From a virus, in the IMG/VR virus record IMGVR_UViG_3300025430_000126, positions 1 to 21,433 of that record: a DNA stretch of 21,433 bases. One strand, 5' to 3'. Both the position numbers and the translations under genes were made by a program. Below the pieces are notes generated by a model. The model did no database searches, was not told the DNA's origin, and was given only the letters and a program-made list of their open reading frames with translations. Positions 6,394 to 20,032 of the stretch are shown piece after piece; position 1 is the stretch's first letter; each line of letters starts with the position of its first letter.

Positions 6394-7029
6394 TTATGAA
6401 TACTGAATTCTAATGGCTGGAACGTATACCGTAGGGGTAATTCCAGGTAATGTTTGTGTTACTAATGATGAGCCTGTGCTACTAGCCCAAATATAATAAC
6501 GAGTTTGTTCTCCAGCAACTGTATATACTGATTGTGGATTTACATATTGTACTGTTTGTCCATTAACTAAATCATAGTATTTACCTGAGTTGGTTGTATT
6601 AGTCCAACCAGAACCAGTATTCTTTTGAGCATATACATATGCAAATTGGTTAGCGCTAGATGTTGTAATATTTAAAGAGATAGATATAGAATAAGTACCT
6701 GTGTACTGAAATGTAAATACTCCAGTTGTATTGTCATAAGTAATACCACTACTACCTGCAACCGTACTAGCAGGAAGTAATAATGTTGGAGTAGTAGCTA
6801 AAGATATAGAAGATGTTAAATCATATGCTTCAATATGTGCATTACTATACCCTGTCGCTGTTGTTAAAGCTGCAGTAGCACCAGTTGTATAATTATCAAT
6901 TTGGTTAAAATATAATCTTAAAGCATTAGAATGTTGTTCTGCATGTCTTTGACTATAATCAACAGGTGATATAGGTAAGTTAGGTGATTTAGTTGATATT
7001 AATGTTGTAGTTTTTAAATCAGTAGCCAT
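6394..7029 (-). CDS. C1q/TNF-like jelly-roll virion protein (211 aa)
   Basis: ATG at 7029 overlaps the nozzle stop codon by one base (TAATG). Residues about 25-46 carry a charged helix RHAEQHSNALRLYFNQIDN, which I recognise as a conserved segment in phage proteins encoded directly after the nozzle and which probably forms the attachment or trimerisation helix. Residues about 75-211 look like a C1q/TNF-type beta sandwich: TGVFTFQYTGTYSISISLNI is the characteristic 'F-x-x-x-G-x-Y' strand pair, followed by further alternating strands ending in PAIRIQYS. Such trimeric heads are common at fibre tips and on tail appendages. It is probably a short fibre or appendage attached to the nozzle. The receptor, if any, is unknown. 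Confidence 0.7.
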   Translation of the reverse strand: MATDLKTTTLISTKSPNLPISPVDYSQRHAEQHSNALRLYFNQIDNYTTGATAALTTATGYSNAHIEAYDLTSSISLATTPTLLLPASTVAGSSGITYDNTTGVFTFQYTGTYSISISLNITTSSANQFAYVYAQKNTGSGWTNTTNSGKYYDLVNGQTVQYVNPQSVYTVAGEQTRYYIWASSTGSSLVTQTLPGITPTVYVPAIRIQYS

Positions 7030-9392
7030 TACCTTCTACCATCTTTTCTAATATCAATTCTAGGTACACCAAGTTGCCAAGCCACACCTAATGAATTAGA
7101 TTCAATTCTAAAGCTTAATTGACGACCACGAAGTCTTGTATAAACTTGTCCTGTAAATTGTTGTACTGTATATTCAGGTATAGTTTGATAGTTTTGTGAG
7201 CTTGTAACTTGTGGATTATCAGCTACTCCATAAGCTGTACCTGAGTTTTGACGCGGTTTAAGTGTCATAGTTACATATGGATCATTTACATTCGATCCAT
7301 TAAAGTTAACGTCTGGTAATATACGCCATACAAATCCAAAGTTATGACCGTCTTCTATATCAAAATCAGATGATTGAACATAAGCATCAATAGGTTGAGC
7401 TGTAATACCTGATACATCATCAACACCAACTTCATGATTTAATAAATAACTTGCGTTATTTGTAACTGTTATTGGTATAGGTGCCATAGAACTTCCAACA
7501 GTTTGACTAAAATTAACAGTATATGTACCAACGCCACCTAGTCCTGTAGATGCAGTTGTATAGGCTGTACCTGAACCAGTCCCAGCACCCGTAGCTACAA
7601 ACGTAACTCCAACGGTATTAGATGAAGCTCCAATAGCCACAAAGTTAGTTGTACCAAGAGTTGCTATAGTGTATGTATTCCCTACAACAAAATTACCTGC
7701 AGTATATGTAACATTGACTGGATTATTTACTCCATTAGTTAAAACCGTAGTTCCTGCTGTAATCCCAGTACCAGTAATAGTAGCTCCTATTTCAATAGAT
7801 CCTGCTGTAGCGTTTGTTATAGTTAAAGTATTACCACTAATATAACCTGTCATTGACGCATTAGTTGTAAAGTATGCAGCGACAGGGTTAGGTAATATAC
7901 CAGAACCACTCCATGCAGTTCTTTCCATAGTGCCATAATACCAAACTTGATCTAGATAATTATAGATAACATAACTATCAATTACTGATGAATTTTTAGA
8001 GCAATAGAACCACCATACTTCATTGTAGCCTTCATTAGCTCCAGCAAATACTTGGTAGCTTTGAGACTGATTTATATTAGCGTAAATATACTGACGAAGT
8101 GAACAAGGTAAAGTTTGTACAGTACCTGAATACATGTAGAACTTTTCTTGACCCATCCAATAAGTCACATTGTTAATCGTAATCATGGAATTTGGACTCA
8201 TCACAGAGATGTTATCCATTAGTATATTGAATCCCCAGATATAAGGTGCGCCTAGATACTGCATAGAATATAGGGCTGAATCTGTCCAAATTAAAATTTC
8301 TTGACGAGTGGCACGAGCTCCCATAATGTATGAACCATTAGTTAACGTGAATTCACCTGATTGATTTGTAACAGATGGTACCCATTGGAATGGATTTAAT
8401 TGATCTGACCATCGTACCAACATAGGATTAAATGTTGTATTTGCATTAGTAGGATCGTATGAATTAGCACCAAACGCAATAACAAACTTTTGAATCGCAG
8501 AAGTAATTACTTGATATGTTGAGTTTGGTACAAATTGACCAGCATTACCGTTTGCAGTAGCTTGAGTTTTAACTAATTGAGCACGAGTTGATAAGCCACC
8601 TGAAGTTCCATTAGGATAATTACCTGATGGTTGCCAGTAATAAATTGGTCCACCTCGTGGAGCTAGGAATAAATACTCACCATAGTTATCATTAGTCCAA
8701 AGTCTTAATTGTGCACCAATACCAGATGCACCTGAATAAGCTGAACCCCAACCACCAAAACCCCAAGGGCTTACACCCCAACCTGTACTTTGAGTATATA
8801 CATTTAGACCTGTTGGAATTTCATAATTAACTGTGAAAGTACCACCTGTACCTGTATCACTTGAGTTAGCAGTAACAACTATACCTGAAGTGTTTTTAGC
8901 AGTAATAGTAAAGTTACCAGAACCAACTCCTGTAATTACGTATTCTTGATTTAATACAGTAGCTGTAATATTGCCACCTAAACCTGTAGCACCTGATATA
9001 ACTACATAATCTCCAACAGCATATGTTGTATATGTACCATCAGTAATAGTTAATGTACTTGATCCATTAGTAGCTGTAATCGCAGCAGTTAAAGAACTAC
9101 TAGCATAATAAGGTGTGATGTCGTAGTAAGTACCACTCCAGTTTAAATAGTATTTAACATTAGAACCTACGCCTACATAGTTATTACTAGCTAAATCTAC
9201 CCAGTCCCATAAACCACGAGCTGTACCTAAAAAAGAATTATTACTATTTAAAAACCTAGTCCATCCACCGATTTTTTCAGGGTATCCTGAACGGAAGCGA
9301 ATCTTGTCGCCATCATACCAACCACCCTCATTGGAGTAGTCAGTACCTTCACGGTTAAGTCCTGGTTTAAGTGTTAGTTTTTGTAAGGGCAT
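7029..9392 (-). CDS. Tail nozzle / DNA stabilisation-type protein with inserted beta modules (787 aa)
   Basis: The N-terminus (KLTLKPGLNREGTDYSNEGG, then WYDGDKIRFRSGYPEKIGGW) and the C-terminus (YTVQQFTGQVYTRLRGRQ, ending VAWQLGVPRIDIRKDGRR) are, from memory, the conserved ends of a phage nozzle family. These proteins form the distal tube of podovirus tails, comparable in role to T7 gp12 or P22 gp10. Residues 200-500 carry the Trp/Tyr-rich propeller-like body (LNPFQWVP, LMDNISVMSPNSMITINN). Two segments look foreign to this body: residues about 102-191 and about 512-642, Thr/Gly/Ala-rich beta sequence with an apparent insert within the second. The gene starts one base after the endolysin stop and lies about 10 kb from the adaptor gene. 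Family call is strong; insert boundaries are approximate. Confidence 0.85.
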   Translation of the reverse strand: MPLQKLTLKPGLNREGTDYSNEGGWYDGDKIRFRSGYPEKIGGWTRFLNSNNSFLGTARGLWDWVDLASNNYVGVGSNVKYYLNWSGTYYDITPYYASSSLTAAITATNGSSTLTITDGTYTTYAVGDYVVISGATGLGGNITATVLNQEYVITGVGSGNFTITAKNTSGIVVTANSSDTGTGGTFTVNYEIPTGLNVYTQSTGWGVSPWGFGGWGSAYSGASGIGAQLRLWTNDNYGEYLFLAPRGGPIYYWQPSGNYPNGTSGGLSTRAQLVKTQATANGNAGQFVPNSTYQVITSAIQKFVIAFGANSYDPTNANTTFNPMLVRWSDQLNPFQWVPSVTNQSGEFTLTNGSYIMGARATRQEILIWTDSALYSMQYLGAPYIWGFNILMDNISVMSPNSMITINNVTYWMGQEKFYMYSGTVQTLPCSLRQYIYANINQSQSYQVFAGANEGYNEVWWFYCSKNSSVIDSYVIYNYLDQVWYYGTMERTAWSGSGILPNPVAAYFTTNASMTGYISGNTLTITNATAGSIEIGATITGTGITAGTTVLTNGVNNPVNVTYTAGNFVVGNTYTIATLGTTNFVAIGASSNTVGVTFVATGAGTGSGTAYTTASTGLGGVGTYTVNFSQTVGSSMAPIPITVTNNASYLLNHEVGVDDVSGITAQPIDAYVQSSDFDIEDGHNFGFVWRILPDVNFNGSNVNDPYVTMTLKPRQNSGTAYGVADNPQVTSSQNYQTIPEYTVQQFTGQVYTRLRGRQLSFRIESNSLGVAWQLGVPRIDIRKDGRR
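7467..7859 (-). other. Inserted beta module in the nozzle (outer)
   Basis: Residues about 512-642 of the nozzle interrupt the conserved body between GILPNPVAAY and YLLNHEVGVDDVSG. The sequence starts MTGYISGNTLTITNATAGS, continues through ITGTGITAGTTVLTNG, and resumes after a further insert with GLGGVGTYTVNFSQTVGS. This order of short strands (ISGxTLT, GTGITAGTT, GVGTYTVN-x-SQTV) is a module I recall from many unrelated phage structural proteins. It is probably surface exposed. Confidence 0.6.
7560..7709 (-). other. Second module nested inside the nozzle insert
   Basis: Residues about 562-611 (YTAGNFVVGNTYTIATLG, TTNFVAIGASSNTVGVTF, VATGAGTGSGTAY) split the outer module between its GTGITAGTT and GVGTYTVN strands. 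Taken alone it reads as a complete small unit with its own Gly-rich end. Removing it rejoins the outer module, which suggests one cassette inserted into another. Confidence 0.5.
8820..9089 (-). other. Inserted beta module near the nozzle N-terminus
   Basis: Residues about 102-191 (ITATNGSSTLTITDGTYTTY, VGDYVVISGATGLGGNITA, EYVITGVGSGNFTITAKNTS) form a Gly/Thr/Ile-rich run between DITPYY and the Trp-rich body. Its strand pattern and composition differ from the flanking Trp/Tyr-rich sequence, and I recall similar units in other phage nozzle-like proteins. It may be an ancestral part of this family rather than a recent insert. Confidence 0.45.
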
Positions 9393-10399: not shown

Positions 10400-10849
10400 C
10401 TATTTGTTAAATGTTTTTAAGTAACACATTACCCAGTCTGTTTTAATACACATCTGAGCATCTATGATATTCATTTGACCCTTACAAATTCTTCTATGTA
10501 ATTCGTTTTCTAGCTTATCTTTATCATGTGCATTGTATTTACCACAATAACTTTGAGGCCATAGATTTTGAGCATCATTAGCACCGCCAAGTTCTAAAGA
10601 TACTAAATGATCTATTTCATAACCTTCACCACAAAGATTTCTATCATTACCAGTTAAGCCATAACTCGCAAACACTTTTTTCTTTAACGAGTCAGGTACA
10701 TTTCTAACTGCAGATGTTGATGTAGTACATAGCTCTGTAACTGTAACACTACGCATGTAACCTGGTGTTAGTTTTAAATCAGGTAACTCTGCTGGTATGC
10801 CATTAGATAAATGAAGCATAAATAGTGCAAATAAACCTAGTTTGTTCAT
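10400..10849 (-). CDS. Secreted HNH-type nuclease-like protein (149 aa)
   Basis: Residues 1-20 (MNKLGLFALFMLHLSNGIPA) look like a signal peptide with a plausible cleavage after Ala20. The mature part has the layout of a family of HNH proteins I recall from phages and bacteria: LTPGYMRSVTV, then VPDSLKKKVFASYGL, then YEIDHLVSLELGGANDAQNL (77-96) followed by WPQ, and AHDKDKLENELHRRICKG (107-124). His81 after Asp80, Asn91/Asn95 and His108 are candidate metal or catalytic residues. Six cysteines lie in the mature part (41, 73, 102, 122, 134, 142), which would allow disulfides outside the cytoplasm. The ATG overlaps the preceding 44-residue gene by four bases (ATGA). It could degrade DNA in the periplasm or after lysis; that target is inference. 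Confidence 0.8.
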   Translation of the reverse strand: MNKLGLFALFMLHLSNGIPAELPDLKLTPGYMRSVTVTELCTTSTSAVRNVPDSLKKKVFASYGLTGNDRNLCGEGYEIDHLVSLELGGANDAQNLWPQSYCGKYNAHDKDKLENELHRRICKGQMNIIDAQMCIKTDWVMCYLKTFNK

Positions 10850-12849: not shown

Positions 12850-14244
12850 TTATAAAATAACCCAACGAGATCCTGCTGGGATAGTAACTTTTACATTAGT
12901 TGTAAATGATTGAGTACCTGATTGAGTTCCAGATGTAGCTAATGGAGTACCTCCATATGTAGCGGCAATCTGAAATGTAGAACCTGATACGTTTACTGCA
13001 TAATAAGTTGTACCTGCTGTAATACCTGTAGGTAATGCACCTGTAGTTGCAAACACCACAGTAGAACCAAACAAAGGAACTGTTCCTGATGCTGTTATAA
13101 CACCTGGTGTTGCTATAGTAATAGTGCAAGGTTGTGAAGCTACTCCAGGATTTATAGTAATAGGTCCTACAGATTCACCATTTTTACTTGTAGTCATTGT
13201 GTAACTTACAGTGATTTGTTTGTTGTTTTCATATACAACACCACCAGCTACAGCACCACTACCACCACCTATAGCACCCCATGTACCTGAATATCCTTCA
13301 AAACTACCTGTAGTAGTATTGTAACGAATCATACCATATGTAGGAGATGCTGGCTCTTGAGCTGTTGTTCCTACTGGTAAAGTAATAGCACCTGTACTAT
13401 TAAAAGTAAATCCATTTGGTATATAAACAGTAGGCGTATTAAATGTAACACTAGAATTAATAACCATTGATATAGTAGGATCATATCCACTGGTTGTATT
13501 TACAGGGTTGGCACCATTTAATGTAGTTGATAAGTTAAATGTATAAGGTCCTGTTCCTGTTATATTATATGCATAATATGTAGCACCAGATGTAATTCCA
13601 GATGGCAAAGATCCAGTAGATGTAAACGACACTTGCGCGTTTTGTTTTGGAGGAGTTCCAGAAGCTAATGTTACAACAGCAGGGCTTGCTTGAGATATTG
13701 TTACCGTTTGAGCTGTAGGATTAACTCCTAAAAATGCTCCATCATAAGCATACATATCATAAAACGAACCATTGGCAATAGTTGTACCACCAATAGTTGT
13801 ACCGTCAATAGTACCACCAATAATAGCTACATTAGACGGATTATAGTTAGTTGCTAAATAAAAACCTGTAGTGCCATCAGTATACATAATATATGTAATA
13901 CCACTAGGCACAGTAATAGTAGTTCCCGAACCAATAGACATAATCACATTTTTAGTCGTATTGTTTCTAACAATATATGTTTTAGCTACAGCTGGAGCTG
14001 TAACAGTGCAATCACCTGATGGACTACCTGAGAATACTAAAACAGCATTTCTTGATTGGTCAGTTAAGCCATTATTAGCCGTTAATGTATATGTGGTTCC
14101 AGTAAGCGTAATAGCGCCTACGCCTGTAATGGCTTGTTCTAATAAAGTACCTAGATTGGTATTGGTAGTATTACCCCAAGTACCTGCTTGCTCACCTGTA
14201 GCTATGAGCTGCAATCTTAAACTGGTTGAATAGGTGGATGCCAT
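12850..14244 (-). CDS. Tail fibre protein with two inserted beta modules (464 aa)
   Basis: Residues 1-42 (MASTYSTSLRLQLIATGEQA, GTWGNTTNTNLGTLLEQAIT) are a well-known phage fibre N-terminus that probably binds the tail. Residues 43-135 continue as beta-rich stalk (VLVFSG, TYIVRNNTTKNV). Residues 299-326 carry PASPTYGMIRYNTTTGSFEG followed by YSGTWGAIGG, another common fibre signature. Two copies of one module lie at about 178-263 and 368-450 (consensus P-x-V-x-T-x-x-G-x-x-P ... TTGxLPxGITxGxTYY ... TF). The second splits the C-terminal sequence SVGPITINPG / VKVTIPAGSRWVIL, which in the 929-residue fibre is continuous. The gene follows a 46-base gap with a possible promoter and has AAGGA nine bases before the ATG. 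Confidence 0.8.
   Translation of the reverse strand: MASTYSTSLRLQLIATGEQAGTWGNTTNTNLGTLLEQAITGVGAITLTGTTYTLTANNGLTDQSRNAVLVFSGSPSGDCTVTAPAVAKTYIVRNNTTKNVIMSIGSGTTITVPSGITYIMYTDGTTGFYLATNYNPSNVAIIGGTIDGTTIGGTTIANGSFYDMYAYDGAFLGVNPTAQTVTISQASPAVVTLASGTPPKQNAQVSFTSTGSLPSGITSGATYYAYNITGTGPYTFNLSTTLNGANPVNTTSGYDPTISMVINSSVTFNTPTVYIPNGFTFNSTGAITLPVGTTAQEPASPTYGMIRYNTTTGSFEGYSGTWGAIGGGSGAVAGGVVYENNKQITVSYTMTTSKNGESVGPITINPGVASQPCTITIATPGVITASGTVPLFGSTVVFATTGALPTGITAGTTYYAVNVSGSTFQIAATYGGTPLATSGTQSGTQSFTTNVKVTIPAGSRWVIL
12895..13143 (-). repeat. Fibre module 'TTGxLPxGIT', copy 2
   Basis: Residues about 368-450 of the 464-residue fibre include QPCTITIATPGVITASGTVP, VVFATTGALPTGITAGTTYY and STFQIAATYGGTPLATSGTQ. 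The module sits between GPITINPG and VTIPAGSRW, at the point where the 929-residue fibre reads GPITVSSG directly into VTVTVPSGSRW. The comparison defines both insertion edges to within a few residues. Confidence 0.75.
13456..13713 (-). repeat. Fibre module 'TTGxLPxGIT', copy 1
   Basis: Residues about 178-263 of the 464-residue fibre include VTISQASPAVVTLASGTPPK, VSFTSTGSLPSGITSGATYY and PYTFNLSTTLNGANPVNTTS. It aligns along its length with copy 2 in the same protein (P-A/G-V ... S/T-G-S/A-LP-S/T-GIT ... TYYA-x-N ... TF), but is clearly diverged, so the two are not a recent tandem duplication. Confidence 0.7.
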
Positions 14245-14271: not shown

Positions 14272-14301
14272 ATTATAGTCAATTTTATCGTTATTGACTA
14301 T
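14272..14301 (-). promoter_or_regulatory. Hairpin and possible promoter before the 464-residue fibre gene
   Basis: A perfect 9-base inverted repeat (14275-14283 and 14293-14301, 9-base loop) spans the stop codon of the 321-residue gene. On the minus strand the distal arm runs into a perfect TATAAT (14277-14272), 28 bases before the fibre ATG. There is no T-run after the stem as in a classical terminator, and no clear -35 box. It could be a weak terminator, a processing hairpin or a promoter. A 13-base stretch of this site also occurs inside the GNAT-like gene (4248-4260), which lowers its specificity. Confidence 0.3.
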
Positions 14302-15256
14302 CATTTATTGGGTTCCAAGTCGATGTTTCTGTATTATTAACCATACCCCATGTGCTATTTGTAGGGGTATTAATAATTGTCCAAGTACCAGAATTGTTAT
14401 TATTTACTAATACCCACGTATTAGTCTGACTATTCGCATTAGCTTGCCAATTATTTGCTTCAGTATTATTAACATTTGACCATCCTTTAGTTGTGTATAA
14501 ATCTAATAATCCTAAAGTTTCTAGGGTTGATGCTAAAAAATTAGCTTTGCTTGTTATTGAATCTGCTAGTGAGGCATTTTCTGTTATAGAGTATATAATT
14601 TGTTTTATTGCTACATTACTATCTGCATACTGAGCATCTTCTGTTATAGTAAATATAAAAGCATTGGTTAGTGTTTCTATATCAGCTAATGTAGTGGCTT
14701 CAGTTATACTGTTTACAAACTGAGCTGTAATTGAAACTAAATCAGCTAAACTAAAGTTTTCAGTAATACTTTCTAAAGCATTAAACTGTTGAGTATTTAA
14801 ATCAGTAAATACGGCATTTTCAGTTAAACTTTCCAAGAATGTTGATAGCTGGGTGCTAAAATCAGCCAAAGTCATTGGCTCTGATATTGTTTCTTGGAAT
14901 GTAGAAACTTCAGTATTAAAGTCATTTAATATGACATTTTCACTAAATGAAACTAAAAAGTTATACTGTTGTGTAGATGAATCATTAAAGCTTACATTTT
15001 CAGTATCAGATACACTAAACTGGGCGGTGATTGTTAGAACATCTGTAATTCCAGCATTGTCAGTAAATGTAACCGCAAATTGAGCTGATATGGTAGGTGT
15101 ATCATTTAGCGTTGCATTCTCAGTAATACTTTGTAAAAACTGAGATAATTCACTATTTAAATCAGCTAATGTAGTATTTTCTGTAATACTAAAAGGGTAA
15201 TAATTTCCCCCTAAAGCTACAAAAGGGCTTTGAGAGAATACATTTAAACCAAACAT
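14291..15256 (-). CDS. Two-part repeat protein: twelve 20-residue units, then six 11-residue Trp units (321 aa)
   Basis: After a short N-terminus (MFGLNVFSQSPFVALGGNYY), residues 21-258 are built of twelve units of 20 residues without one insertion or deletion, the last slightly short. The unit is roughly hydrophobic-x-S-I-T-E-N-A-x-L-x-D-x-x-T-x-x-A-x-F (for example LESITENFSLADLVSITAQF). The acidic residue after T, the later Asp and the closing Phe are the most constant positions. Residues 259-321 switch to a different repeat: Trp at 259, 270, 281, 292, 303 and 314, exactly 11 apart, with Asn/Thr/Ser between (TWTIINTPTNS). Such regularity suggests a solenoid or fibrous rod with a Trp-rich end. 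The gene starts one base after the large fibre's stop, so it is probably a fibre component. I do not recognise a named family. Confidence 0.8.
   Translation of the reverse strand: MFGLNVFSQSPFVALGGNYYPFSITENTTLADLNSELSQFLQSITENATLNDTPTISAQFAVTFTDNAGITDVLTITAQFSVSDTENVSFNDSSTQQYNFLVSFSENVILNDFNTEVSTFQETISEPMTLADFSTQLSTFLESLTENAVFTDLNTQQFNALESITENFSLADLVSITAQFVNSITEATTLADIETLTNAFIFTITEDAQYADSNVAIKQIIYSITENASLADSITSKANFLASTLETLGLLDLYTTKGWSNVNNTEANNWQANANSQTNTWVLVNNNNSGTWTIINTPTNSTWGMVNNTETSTWNPINDSQ
14294..14482 (-). repeat. Six tandem 33-base (11-residue) Trp repeats
   Basis: These encode residues 259-321 of the repeat protein. Tryptophan recurs at exactly 11-residue intervals six times, with T/N-rich spacers and a hydrophobic pair after most Trp residues (WVLV, WTII, WGMV). 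The DNA copies are diverged, so the period is kept at protein level. Confidence 0.9.
14483..15196 (-). repeat. Twelve tandem 60-base (20-residue) repeats
   Basis: These encode residues 21-258 of the repeat protein. The T-E-N/D block recurs every 20 residues. At DNA level, bases of the form CAGTAATACT or CTGTTATAG recur every 60 bases from about 14581 to 15190, but the rest of each unit is diverged. There is no loss of register over about 700 bases. Confidence 0.92.
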
Positions 15257-15257
15257 G

Positions 15258-18047
15258 TTATACGACTACCCAGCGAGATCCAGATGGTACAGTTACTGTA
15301 ACTCCGCTTGAAACTGTAATTGGGCCTGCACTCATTGCATTAGAACCAGAAGGTATAGAATAAGATGTTGCAATGGTTGCTTTATTGACTACTAGACCAT
15401 TTGTTGCGTTTACTTGTGGTGCATTTAATGTACCAGCTGCTATATATGTTTGTGTTGTAGAGCTATTACCTATTACTGTTGTATTAGAGCCAAGACCTGT
15501 TTGGTTATAACCTATAACAATTTCATTAGTATCTGCCGCAGTAGATGCTTGTGCTTGATAACCTACAAATATGTTATTTGTGCCTGTGGTAAGAGCAGTT
15601 CCTGCGTAACCTGCTTGATAACCAATCGCAGTATTATTGCCACCTGTTGCTGAATATAAAGCCATATATCCAATACCTGTTAAAGCATTGGATGTTGAAT
15701 TACTTGCTAATGCTCCTGCTCCTACAGCAGTTAAATAATTTCCTGAAGTATTAGCATTTCCATTTGCTATACCCCCTGCATTTTGTCCTCCTACAAAAAC
15801 ATTATATGCTCCTGTAGTATTAGCATAACCTGCAGCAGCTCCGTAACCTACATTAAATCTACCTGAAGTAGTATTAACTAAACATTGAAAACCTGTTGCG
15901 GTATTTCCTGTAGCTACTGTATTTGCTGTTAAAGCCTGATATCCCACAGCAGTATTTTGTGTTCCACTTGCTAAAGATGCCACAGGAACGCTAAATCCAC
16001 TACCTGTTCCACCAATAGATGCGGCAGGTGCTGTTAATACTGTGGTTGTGTCTTTAAAGCCTACGCCATTAGATGTAAGTGTTACAGATGTTACTGCACC
16101 GCCTGATACTACGATAGTAGCGGTTGGGTATGTAGTGGCAGTAGAACCTGACGATAATGTCATGACTACACCAGTATATGTTCCTGCGGTGTATCCTGTT
16201 CCACCTGTAATAGTGCCTAGTGTGGCTACGTTGGTGGTGTTATTTTGTAGAGAACCATAACCAATTGCAGTTAAATTTCCTGTTATGGTATTGTTATAAA
16301 GAGATTGCCAACCTACCGCAGTATTAGCACTTGCTGTTGTATTATACCAAAGTGAGTTATATCCAATAGCAATATTATTACTACCTGATATATTTAATCT
16401 AAGCGCATTATGTCCAACACCTGTATTTTGATTGCCTGAAGTATTTGCATATAATGTAGCTTGACCAATACCAATGTTTTGATTGCCATTATTGTTACTT
16501 AATAATGCAGATGAACCAATAGCAACATTCTGTACGCCACCTGTTAAAGATGCAAGAACTTGATAACCTAATCCTGTATTATTTCCACCTGTTGCTGTTG
16601 CATTTAGTGCTTGGTAGCCAACAGCCATATTCGTGCTTACATTTCCCCCACCCAATCCAACAGTAACTGTGTTAAATGTAGAGTCAGCAGTTGTAGTTAA
16701 AGCACCAGCACTAGATAAATACATCTTCTCTGTAGGAGATGCACCGTTAGCGCTTATATAGAAACTTAATTTAGAAGTAGGTGGATTAACGTTGAATGTT
16801 AAAGCGTTTAATTGCATGTATGCTTGTGATGCTACTGCACCTGAAGCACTGTTCCATGCTGAAGCTGTAAAGCCTATAACAGGGCTATTTAAGAAACCGC
16901 CTGCAAATGCTGGGTAAGGTTGATAAGCCCAAATACCGCCTGTTGTTGGTGATGTAGATGCATTAGCACCGCCTGATGCGTAAATATTGCTAGATGATCC
17001 AATACCACCTACTACTGTTAAAGCACCTGTAGTGTTAGATGTAGAGTTAGTTGTTCCGCCAATAGCTACAGAGCCACTAGGAACAGAGATGTTGTTAGTG
17101 GTGGTTACTGCTGTTGTGGTTGTGGGTGTGTAGGATGATGCTACAGAGCCTAATTCTAACTGAGCTCCCCATGTATATACATATTCAGTTCCTGTTGCAC
17201 TCCATGATCTTGTATTAGCAGTTCCTGATCCTGATAAATAAAATTCAGGATAATTTGTGCCTGCTGTTCCAATAGCTGTAGTAATTGAGCAACGATACCA
17301 CCCACTTCCAACGGATGTAATAGATGATGTTACATTGGCATTAGTAAAGCCTACTGTGCCTGTAGATAAATTAAATGTAGCACCTAAAACACCTGTATTA
17401 GAAAAATCTAATGTTACAAAGTTATATGTTCCAGCTTTAAAGTATTGTGAATAAGTATATGTTGCCGCAGCATAAGTAGCAATTTCATATAAGCCGTGAG
17501 AATTATTAACATTTTGAGCTAATATTTTAGCCGCAGTTGATGTTCCATCAGGTGCTGTTGTGTTATTATCTGTAACAGTAACACCACCACCAGCATAAGT
17601 TTGAAACCAAGTTGCTCCAGTAAATGCTTGTGAATAGGTTATTAAATTATTCCCACCCTGTAAGTAGAGTTGTTTGTCTACTATGTTGTTATTAAATATT
17701 GAGGTAGAAGGTGTTACGACACCATTAAGAGGATCATTATAGACTGCTTGAGATGATGGATAATCAATCCATACATTCACTGAAGAACCAAATGTAGATA
17801 CTGCTGAACCAGAGTTACTTGAGGATAATATTGTAGAACGAGTTAGGGTAGGACCTGTAGACGAGTAAATACCAATACCAACTTCCCAGTTAGTACCGTC
17901 TGATGATCCATAAAATACAGTGTTACCGTTGGTGATACCAGCAGTAGCAAATGATTGATAACCCGTTACAGCTGAACCAAGAGTAAAACTTACTGTGGTA
18001 TTAGCTGTAGCGGTTACCTGGACTCTGTCTGCTATTTGAAGAGCCAT
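15258..18047 (-). CDS. Large tail fibre with lectin-like domain and YadA-head-like repeats (929 aa)
   Basis: Residues 1-105 (MALQIADRVQVTAT, WEVGIGIYSSTGPTLTRSTI, NVWIDYPSSQA) are a conserved phage fibre adaptor domain. Residues about 130-308 (NNLITYSQAFTGATW, TAPDGTSTAAKI, GWYRCSI, YTWGAQLELGSVASSYTPTT) form a jelly-roll domain often read as carbohydrate binding. Residues about 326-460 form a stalk. Residues about 472-866 are repeats of the YadA/Hep_Hag head type (NVAIGSSAL, NIGIGQATL, NTGVGHNAL, NIAIGYNSL), expected to fold as a trimeric beta roll. An unrelated module (about 611-692) interrupts them. Residues 908-929 (GPITVSSGVTVTVPSGSRWV) match the C-terminus of the 464-residue fibre. No intramolecular chaperone peptidase domain is seen. 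TAAGGAGCTTAA precedes the ATG. Confidence 0.82.
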   Translation of the reverse strand: MALQIADRVQVTATANTTVSFTLGSAVTGYQSFATAGITNGNTVFYGSSDGTNWEVGIGIYSSTGPTLTRSTILSSSNSGSAVSTFGSSVNVWIDYPSSQAVYNDPLNGVVTPSTSIFNNNIVDKQLYLQGGNNLITYSQAFTGATWFQTYAGGGVTVTDNNTTAPDGTSTAAKILAQNVNNSHGLYEIATYAAATYTYSQYFKAGTYNFVTLDFSNTGVLGATFNLSTGTVGFTNANVTSSITSVGSGWYRCSITTAIGTAGTNYPEFYLSGSGTANTRSWSATGTEYVYTWGAQLELGSVASSYTPTTTTAVTTTNNISVPSGSVAIGGTTNSTSNTTGALTVVGGIGSSSNIYASGGANASTSPTTGGIWAYQPYPAFAGGFLNSPVIGFTASAWNSASGAVASQAYMQLNALTFNVNPPTSKLSFYISANGASPTEKMYLSSAGALTTTADSTFNTVTVGLGGGNVSTNMAVGYQALNATATGGNNTGLGYQVLASLTGGVQNVAIGSSALLSNNNGNQNIGIGQATLYANTSGNQNTGVGHNALRLNISGSNNIAIGYNSLWYNTTASANTAVGWQSLYNNTITGNLTAIGYGSLQNNTTNVATLGTITGGTGYTAGTYTGVVMTLSSGSTATTYPTATIVVSGGAVTSVTLTSNGVGFKDTTTVLTAPAASIGGTGSGFSVPVASLASGTQNTAVGYQALTANTVATGNTATGFQCLVNTTSGRFNVGYGAAAGYANTTGAYNVFVGGQNAGGIANGNANTSGNYLTAVGAGALASNSTSNALTGIGYMALYSATGGNNTAIGYQAGYAGTALTTGTNNIFVGYQAQASTAADTNEIVIGYNQTGLGSNTTVIGNSSTTQTYIAAGTLNAPQVNATNGLVVNKATIATSYSIPSGSNAMSAGPITVSSGVTVTVPSGSRWVVV
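15972..16217 (-). repeat. Shared module 'GTGYxxGTY', copy in the large fibre
   Basis: Residues about 611-692 (GTITGGTGYTAGTYTGVVMT, YPTATIVVSGGAVTSVTLTS, IGGTGSGFSVPVASL) sit between two YadA-like units (TAIGYGSLQNN and NTAVGYQALTAN) without disturbing either. The same module occurs in the adaptor protein. Codon choice looks more G+C-rich here than in the flanking repeats. Confidence 0.75.
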
Positions 18048-18680: not shown

Positions 18681-19109
18681 TTAACTTATACGAAGAACAG
18701 CAGATGATGATGTTGCTGTTGGAAATGTTATTGTAAATGTATTTAGTGCTGTTTTAGAACTACCAAAATTTAATACAGCAACGGATGCTCCTGTGCCGCT
18801 ATTATATATCAAAGCTCCTGATGTTGTAAAACTTGCAGGAGACCAAGTTACATTATTAAAAGACCAAAAGGCAGTATTGTTTGTTGTATCACCTACAACA
18901 GGAACTATTGTTAAAACTTGTCCGCCTGCAGTATATCCTGTACCTGTAACTTCATTAGTAGAAGTATATGCAGTGGTTGTACTATCTAAACTAGCGTTAC
19001 CATTGTATAAAGCAATTTTATAAACATTAGTAGATGTTGAACTAAAGTTTTCTGCTCCACTAGCTAAATTAACTTTAAACGTAGTTGTTTGCGTTTGAAT
19101 AATTGACAT
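18681..19109 (-). CDS. Conserved small beta-rich virion protein (142 aa)
   Basis: The sequence (NVYKIALYNGNASLDSTTTA, YTSTNEVTGTGYTAGGQVLT, WSFNNVTWSPASFTTSGALI, YNSGTGASVAVLNFGSSKTA) is a pattern I recognise from many tailed phages: 'Y-K-x-A-L-Y' strand, 'T-x-E-V-x-G-x-G-Y-x-A-G-G' turn, 'W-x-x-x-S-x-x-x-x-G-A-L-I-Y-N', and a closing 'V-L-x-F-G-S-x-K-T' strand. It is an all-beta protein without signal peptide, probably a decoration or tail-associated virion component. ATG at 19109 overlaps the adaptor stop by one base (TAATG), so expression is probably coupled to the adaptor. No function has been shown in anything I recall. Confidence 0.72.
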   Translation of the reverse strand: MSIIQTQTTTFKVNLASGAENFSSTSTNVYKIALYNGNASLDSTTTAYTSTNEVTGTGYTAGGQVLTIVPVVGDTTNNTAFWSFNNVTWSPASFTTSGALIYNSGTGASVAVLNFGSSKTALNTFTITFPTATSSSAVLRIS

Positions 19110-20032
19110 TATAGATTATTATATTTAAGTTTAGTTTGACCTTCACGGTATGCATCACCACGTTCAAGACCATCACCAAGACGTTTAAGTTGTGCTAAAG
19201 CTTCTTGATACTTTTGTTCATAATAGGTAACTAAATCTTGTTCGCCTTTCATGAAAAGCATAGCTTCACGCATAGCACCATAAAATAATACAGGATCATA
19301 ATTATTACCTAGCCATGAAGTACCTGTAGGATTATTGATTGCATTTACAGGAACTGAAAAGTTAGAACCTGAATTACCTAGATATGATGGACTTACAGAT
19401 AATACATCTCCAACTACATAACTTGAACCGCCATTAACTACAGTTACTGAAGTTACTGTACCAGATGAACTTACTACTATTGTAGCTATAGCACCTGAAC
19501 CATTACCGCCAGTCATAGGTACATTCTCATAGGTTCCTTGTACATAACCCGTACCTGCTGTAATTGCACCAAATCCTGATATAACACCTTGAACAATACT
19601 AACTGGATAATAAAAATAATGTAATTCTGTTGAATAATTACTATCAGGTGTTGGGCCTAATATAAAAGACAATGAATTTAAATCATTATATTGCGTGCCA
19701 AATAAAGCATAGTACTGTGGAGTACCTTGAAAGCTAGAATTAGGGTATGCTTCCCTAATAAAGTTAACATCTTTATTTAACAAATAACTATATGTGCCTG
19801 AAGAATCTATAACAGCAATAGAAAAGGTAGATAAATAATCTGTAGGCACTGATAAATATTGATTACCAGATGTCATATTACCTAATACGTTTTTACGTAA
19901 TGCAGGTATTTGAACAGCATTATAAATTCTATCTTCAGCTTCTTGAACAAAGCGAGGAATATTCTGGACAAATAATGCCTCAGTATTCTCGCTATAGTCT
20001 TGAATTGCTTGGTATAGTTCTAAATAATTCAC
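19109..20032 (-). CDS. Head-tail adaptor protein with an inserted beta module (307 aa, GTG start)
   Basis: Residues 1-148 (MNYLELYQAIQDYSEN, FVQNIPRFVQEAEDRIYNAV, QIPALRKNVLGNMTSGNQYL, SVPTDYLSTFSIAV) and 235-300 (TSWLGNNYDPVLFYGAMREA, MLFMKGEQDLVTYYEQKYQE) match the podovirus adaptor type, similar in role to T7 gp11 and to the SU10-like adaptors. Such proteins form a dodecameric ring between portal and nozzle. Residues about 149-234 are a beta module foreign to this helical family, placed between FYYPVSI and the W-L-x-N-x-x-x-P-V-L-F-Y-G block. The start is GTG at 20032, supported by AAGGA eight bases upstream and by homologous residues beginning at once. It follows the 105-residue gene by five bases. 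Confidence 0.82.
   Translation of the reverse strand: MNYLELYQAIQDYSENTEALFVQNIPRFVQEAEDRIYNAVQIPALRKNVLGNMTSGNQYLSVPTDYLSTFSIAVIDSSGTYSYLLNKDVNFIREAYPNSSFQGTPQYYALFGTQYNDLNSLSFILGPTPDSNYSTELHYFYYPVSIVQGVISGFGAITAGTGYVQGTYENVPMTGGNGSGAIATIVVSSSGTVTSVTVVNGGSSYVVGDVLSVSPSYLGNSGSNFSVPVNAINNPTGTSWLGNNYDPVLFYGAMREAMLFMKGEQDLVTYYEQKYQEALAQLKRLGDGLERGDAYREGQTKLKYNNL
19331..19588 (-). repeat. Shared module 'GTGYxxGTY', copy in the adaptor
   Basis: Residues about 149-234 of the adaptor (GAITAGTGYVQGTYENVPMT, GGNGSGAIATIVVSSSGTVT, SVTVVNGGSSYVVGDVLSVS, SGSNFSVPVNAI) align along their length with residues 611-692 of the large fibre. Shared positions include G-x-GTGY-x-x-GTY, T-A/I-TIVVS, VTSVT, and SG-S/N-x-FSVPV. 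Similarity is clear in protein and weak in DNA, so the copies are old or arrived separately. Confidence 0.78.

Follow-up and report, generated by a model that had tools for sequence, protein, structure and literature searches.

A phage tail nozzle protein carries a small tail module interrupted by a second, unrelated module

Shuffling of protein domains is already known in phages. Domain mosaicism, in which homologous domains occur in otherwise unrelated phage proteins, was described by Smug et al. (2023, PMC10684548) as ongoing in tail and neck proteins without a dedicated mobility gene; the examples that a text search of that article brought up concern exchange, insertion and deletion of domains, the word "nested" being absent. 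Ig-like domains (Fraser et al. 2006, in PMC8718954) are small beta domains found sporadically on virion proteins across phage types, and weak binding of cell-surface carbohydrates has been proposed for those of tails (PMC8718954). At the DNA level, Rickettsia palindromic elements and other in-frame mobile repeats are short in-frame pieces that recur in unrelated genes. Nozzles are members of the tail tubular protein class. Tail tubular proteins have been reported to bind a Vibrio parahaemolyticus receptor (PMC7241545).

The stretch of DNA analysed here, hereafter the window, is a virus record of 21.4 kb (21,433 nt, IMG/VR). Its minus-strand ORF at positions 7029-9392 encodes a protein of 787 aa that, by sequence and by fold, belongs to the podophage tail nozzles (T7, VP1, SU10, Pa223; phrog_3287). 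Indeed, it matches phrog_3287 with E=3.2e-63 and, in a phmmer comparison with solved nozzles, 9nwi (E=5.6e-14), 8zkm and 8zkk, while the best Foldseek matches of a modest nozzle model are the portal-tail nozzles of Pa223, SU10, VP1 and T7. The AF2 model of the full nozzle is poor (mean pLDDT 61), with values below 50 in the region of the inner module described below, for want of aligned rows. An HGL-type domain at 8901-9080 (minus strand, approximately residues 105-164) is native to the nozzle; some nozzle relatives carry a second HGL copy. The insert that is the subject of this work is accessory and missing in most relatives.

This insert lies at window positions 7467-7859 on the minus strand, corresponding to nozzle residues 642-512, and consists of a module that we call OUTER interrupted by an unrelated module that we call INNER. 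The left part of OUTER (7731-7859, residues 512-554), recognised by the OUTER profile, is separated from its right part (7467-7547, residues 616-642; TGLGGVGTYTVNFSQTV...) by a piece of 61 aa (7548-7730, residues 555-615) made of a 10-aa linker, the 46-aa INNER core (7563-7700, residues 565-610; AGNFVVGNTYTI...GTGSGTA) and a 5-aa linker. With an OUTER profile from which the window lineage had been left out, the intact segment scored 33.8 bits, the left half 42.4 and the right half 25.2, and the two halves once rejoined scored 72.6 bits, which falls within the range of uninterrupted natural nozzle copies (69.9-82.9 bits); nozzles with an empty site gave no score. When every deletion of 20-90 aa was simulated (7,171 in all), the optimum fell at exactly residues 555-615, a piece of 61 aa and 183 nt at window positions 7548-7730, and PHROG phrog_21413 matched the rejoined sequence with 49.4 bits versus 37.9 bits with the insert present. 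The INNER core itself was matched with E=2.9e-25 by a profile built from other proteins, window lineage excluded. These data confirm that the nesting is real and far beyond chance. A preliminary description of this DNA had read residues about 512-642 as one module split by a second complete unit of about 50 residues whose removal rejoins the first; both the nesting and the rejoining are borne out, and the inner domain is indeed a separate unit, its extent now being refined to a 61-aa insert with a 46-aa core.

INNER was predicted alone, from 40 aligned copies, as a three-stranded fold with a mean pLDDT of 90.4 and a pTM of 0.74, and seven predicted proteins from uncultured phages contain modules matched by this model (E<0.001, 0.3-1.3 A); no fold match was obtained in the PDB. 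Three alignments in which modules were wrongly placed were left out of the structure prediction. Neither INNER nor OUTER matched a named family in Pfam, NCBIfam or the PDB, and a literature search on the motif strings and on insertions of the nested kind returned nothing relevant. INNER resembles the Ig-like domains in being a small beta domain found sporadically on virion proteins; it differs from them by its size of 46 aa, by its three predicted strands only, by the lack of an Ig (Big) match in Pfam or among PDB folds, and by lying internally, within loops, and not as an appendage at a terminus. MAFFT tended to align INNER with OUTER, but a relation between the two was rejected, as there was no profile match; likewise, hhalign found no relation among the INNER, OUTER and HGL profiles (probability 0.4-5%). 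An origin of INNER from the nozzle's own HGL domain was also discarded, a clean profile giving only E=0.007 without a profile-profile match; the earlier HGL match at E=2e-10 had been obtained with a profile that contained that match itself.

Comparison with nozzle homologues is informative about the order of events. Among 80 IMG/VR nozzle loci, most are of about 640 aa with neither module at the site, as in L005 (NPVAAKYDSATNTGLLLYHE). Uninterrupted OUTER is present at the same site in 19 nozzles, counting the 80 loci and two found later (L004, L007, L022 and L053 are among them), and L057 carries an unrelated module there. OUTER with INNER inside was found only in L001-L003, which are practically identical to the window itself; no near-identical pair of nozzles with and without INNER was found among the homologues. 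On a quick tree of the nozzle core, built without bootstrap and on which change counts give no direction, OUTER needs a minimum of three changes, INNER within OUTER one, and INNER at three other nozzle sites two, two and one. Since OUTER is shared with sister lineages and INNER within OUTER arises once on this tree, the most parsimonious order would be OUTER first and INNER later, in at least two successive steps. The preliminary description had proposed at least two successive insertions and had suggested looking for homologues with only the outer module or with neither; both kinds exist, those with neither module being the majority, and the tree agrees with successive insertions. Its placing of both insertions in the same loop of the nozzle does not hold, since the second insertion lies within the first module, in one of its turns. 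The empty-site and OUTER-only nozzles also rule out that the whole 130-aa segment is one conserved domain.

INNER occurs alone in many other proteins, as the preliminary description had proposed to check. A scan of IMG/VR yielded 187 relatives and the genome collection seven, and the fetched loci contained 128 non-redundant copies in 22 clusters of host proteins. INNER is thus homologous across 22 host clusters with unrelated flanks, as in domain mosaicism. Eleven of the 22 clusters could be annotated, every one of them as virion or tail: nozzle, central tail fibre J, distal tail protein, two phrog_2048 tail proteins, T4-type sheath stabiliser, T4-type baseplate wedge, tail collar fibre, internal virion proteins and a large virion structural protein. 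Homologues with and without INNER are clear in several of these families; the figure of 108 "empty site" matches among 123 is not used as a count of true empty sites, because matches between modules are among them. In cultured phages the module search gave only three records, a type of search limited by the low-complexity filter. Some loci carry multiple copies: the 1,243-aa nozzle-like protein of L142:3336-7064 has about seven of them spread over various positions, and in L086:1074-8366 INNER is found in three adjacent tail genes (distal tail protein, phrog_2048 tail protein and J-like protein). INNER copies are also found within very long proteins of L159-L163, from Spirochaetes and Verrucomicrobia metagenome bins.

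Nesting is not restricted to the window. In four further combinations the outer module scored higher once its flanks had been rejoined: INNER within the second HGL copy of a subset of the nozzles that have one (L056, gain of 28.5 bits), INNER within INNER in a tail collar fibre (L120:3114-5723, 17.2 bits), INNER within a TRG-type module of a baseplate protein (L097, 9.6 bits), and a GTGY-type module within OUTER (L302 and L335, 31-33 bits). In the last combination, the turn that is split is identical to that of the window. The GTGY-type module and INNER therefore split OUTER at the same turn, and the turn preceding the GVGTYTV strand of OUTER is a repeated acceptor site.

How the modules spread was approached by comparing their DNA. 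INNER copies in unrelated hosts, in a sample of loci found by peptide patterns, reach an amino acid identity of 0.87 with at most 0.75 nucleotide identity; between hosts the median amino acid identity is 0.64 and identity at fourfold sites is 0.29, near random. INNER copies are thus conserved as protein, and recent DNA copying or transposition is not supported, because the copies share protein but not silent-site sequence. No terminal inverted repeat or palindrome of at least 9 nt was found in the window insert or in L256. INNER shares with the Rickettsia palindromic elements its short, in-frame recurrence, but DNA-level relatedness of copies, looked for in this sample, and inverted repeats, looked for in these two copies, were not found. 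Evidence of exchange comes from L256, which has the module, and L250, which does not: they are 96.6% identical over 1,668 nt on the left and 94.8% over 1,720 nt on the right, and differ in length by exactly 162 nt (54 codons). The 290 nt beside the joint contain 42 mismatches (14.5%) versus 104 in the other 3,098 nt (3.4%; Fisher p=2.4e-13), the densest 290-nt stretch (44 mismatches; maximum of 29 in 2,000 permutations) begins 20 nt before the joint, and L250 is placed within the module-bearing clade. The simplest reading is that a short tract of homologous recombination replaced a module-bearing allele by a module-free one. This pair represents a recent exchange between close genomes, as in domain mosaicism, and is one event in a gene family other than the nozzle. 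The analogy with mobile elements that had been drawn from the nesting is thus not retained in the sense of DNA transposition, silent sites being nearly unrelated and the L256/L250 pair looking like homologous recombination.

A 14-nt imperfect direct repeat (13/14) is present in the window, on the minus strand, with its left copy at 7700-7713, at the edge of the INNER core, and its right copy at 7517-7530, inside OUTER (VGTYTV). Its spacing of 183 nt equals the insert length obtained independently from the protein profiles; among the repeats at all lags it is in the longest two, and 300 trials with codon-shuffled sequence never reached it at the 183-nt lag. This repeat was noticed after the fact, and the joint that its parse implies lies seven residues further downstream than the optimum of the profile scan. 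No direct repeat of insertion length was found in 14 other insertions. The repeat of the window may be a sign of microhomology or of target duplication, and is to be taken as a clue, not as proof.

Our results make it probable that the nozzle gained OUTER and then INNER from a pool of shuffled tail domains spread by ordinary phage recombination; here the DNA evidence of recombination comes from one event outside the nozzle gene, and the order from the quick tree and parsimony. OUTER (about 65 aa) would have entered between the RTAW and LLYHE strands in an ancestor of the nozzle clade, and the 61-aa piece with INNER would later have entered the turn of OUTER, between TTVLTNG and TGLGGVGTYTV, in the window lineage only. 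Both modules would be part of this pool, made up of short domains that fold by themselves and are shuffled in frame among the virion tail proteins of tailed phages and tolerated wherever turns accept them, including the turns of other modules, which would lead to nesting. Their spread would proceed through recombination between co-infecting phages, without a dedicated mobility gene. We infer the way in which a module first jumps to a non-homologous site as well as the surface exposure of the modules. From their location in tails and by analogy with other tail domains, INNER and OUTER would most likely decorate the tail exterior and provide additional weak contacts to the cell surface or the environment; a role as external accessory domain fits the annotated INNER hosts, since these are restricted to tail and virion proteins.

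Other explanations have to be considered. The Thr/Gly-rich composition of these beta sequences, together with the weak INNER-like match in the nozzle's own HGL domain at E=0.007, might suggest that the modules are products of convergence or of alignment of low-complexity sequence, which is highly improbable: the profile E values in unrelated proteins lie between 1e-20 and 1e-25, the common fold is predicted with confidence, and the deletion scan has an exact optimum. The 130-aa segment might also have come as a ready composite, with INNER already inside OUTER, and taken the place of an older OUTER. OUTER does occur in other proteins and, split by another module, exists elsewhere, so that ready composites do exist; nevertheless, we regard this course of events as unlikely, considering that sister nozzles have uninterrupted OUTER at the same site and that no further composite of OUTER and INNER was found in the loci fetched with either module.

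The DNA data bear on the possibility that INNER, like the Rickettsia palindromic elements, is a selfish DNA element transposing in frame into phage genes, perhaps mobilised in trans, whose protein fold would be a by-product making insertions tolerable. Such an element would agree with the insertion of INNER into unrelated genes, other modules and itself, with the strictly kept reading frame and with the 14-nt repeat at the exact insertion length in the window. Against it stand the nucleotide identity between unrelated hosts, never above 75%, and the near-random fourfold sites next to such a conserved protein, as well as the lack of inverted repeats in both copies inspected and of insertion-length repeats in the 14 other cases, and we hold a selfish element to be quite improbable. 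Likewise, there is only a slim chance that INNER is an active class of phage-borne cassette, inserted in frame by a dedicated or hijacked recombination that leaves short direct repeats, the window copy being young with its 14-nt target duplication still visible. Regarding mobility genes in the window itself, a small nuclease-like protein is encoded at 10400-10849 (minus strand), with a motif EIDHLVSLELGGANDAQNLWPQ that is HNH-like by eye and a weak match to PF13930 (E=0.0028); as a candidate, it might bear on the statement of the preliminary description that a mobility gene is absent.

Compared with the examples of domain mosaicism found by text search in PMC10684548, the present case differs in that insertion takes place inside other shuffled domains, and by a domain that is unnamed in databases. 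What is new is two tail modules, named here and recognised by none of the family databases used although widespread, their insertion into each other, and a recurrent acceptor turn. The empty-site relatives document that phage tail proteins are built by small domains inserted within inserted domains. Moreover, the L256/L250 pair is an actual example of a domain gained or lost in frame by way of a short recombination tract, so that this route of shuffling can be tested directly in uncultured phages. Should INNER prove to bind a surface ligand, its occurrence in nozzle, sheath, baseplate and fibre proteins would make it a common accessory across tail types.

Other genes of the window show related features. 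An SU10-type adaptor gene at 19109-20032 (minus strand) matches PF24175 with E=3.6e-19 over its N-terminal 147 residues only; it contains a GTGY-like stretch (ITAGTGYVQGTYENV...SVPVNAI) that resembles the OUTER-splitting module of L302 and L335 and that is probably another insertion. Two large fibre-like proteins at 15258-18047 and 12850-14244 (minus strand) have further repeat-like modules (ITGGTGYTAGTYTGV... and SGITSGATYYAYNITGTGPYTFNLS...) that are also present in other loci, and the 321-aa protein encoded at 14291-15256 (minus strand) has repeats of about 20 residues of the kind ITENATLADLNTQ..F.
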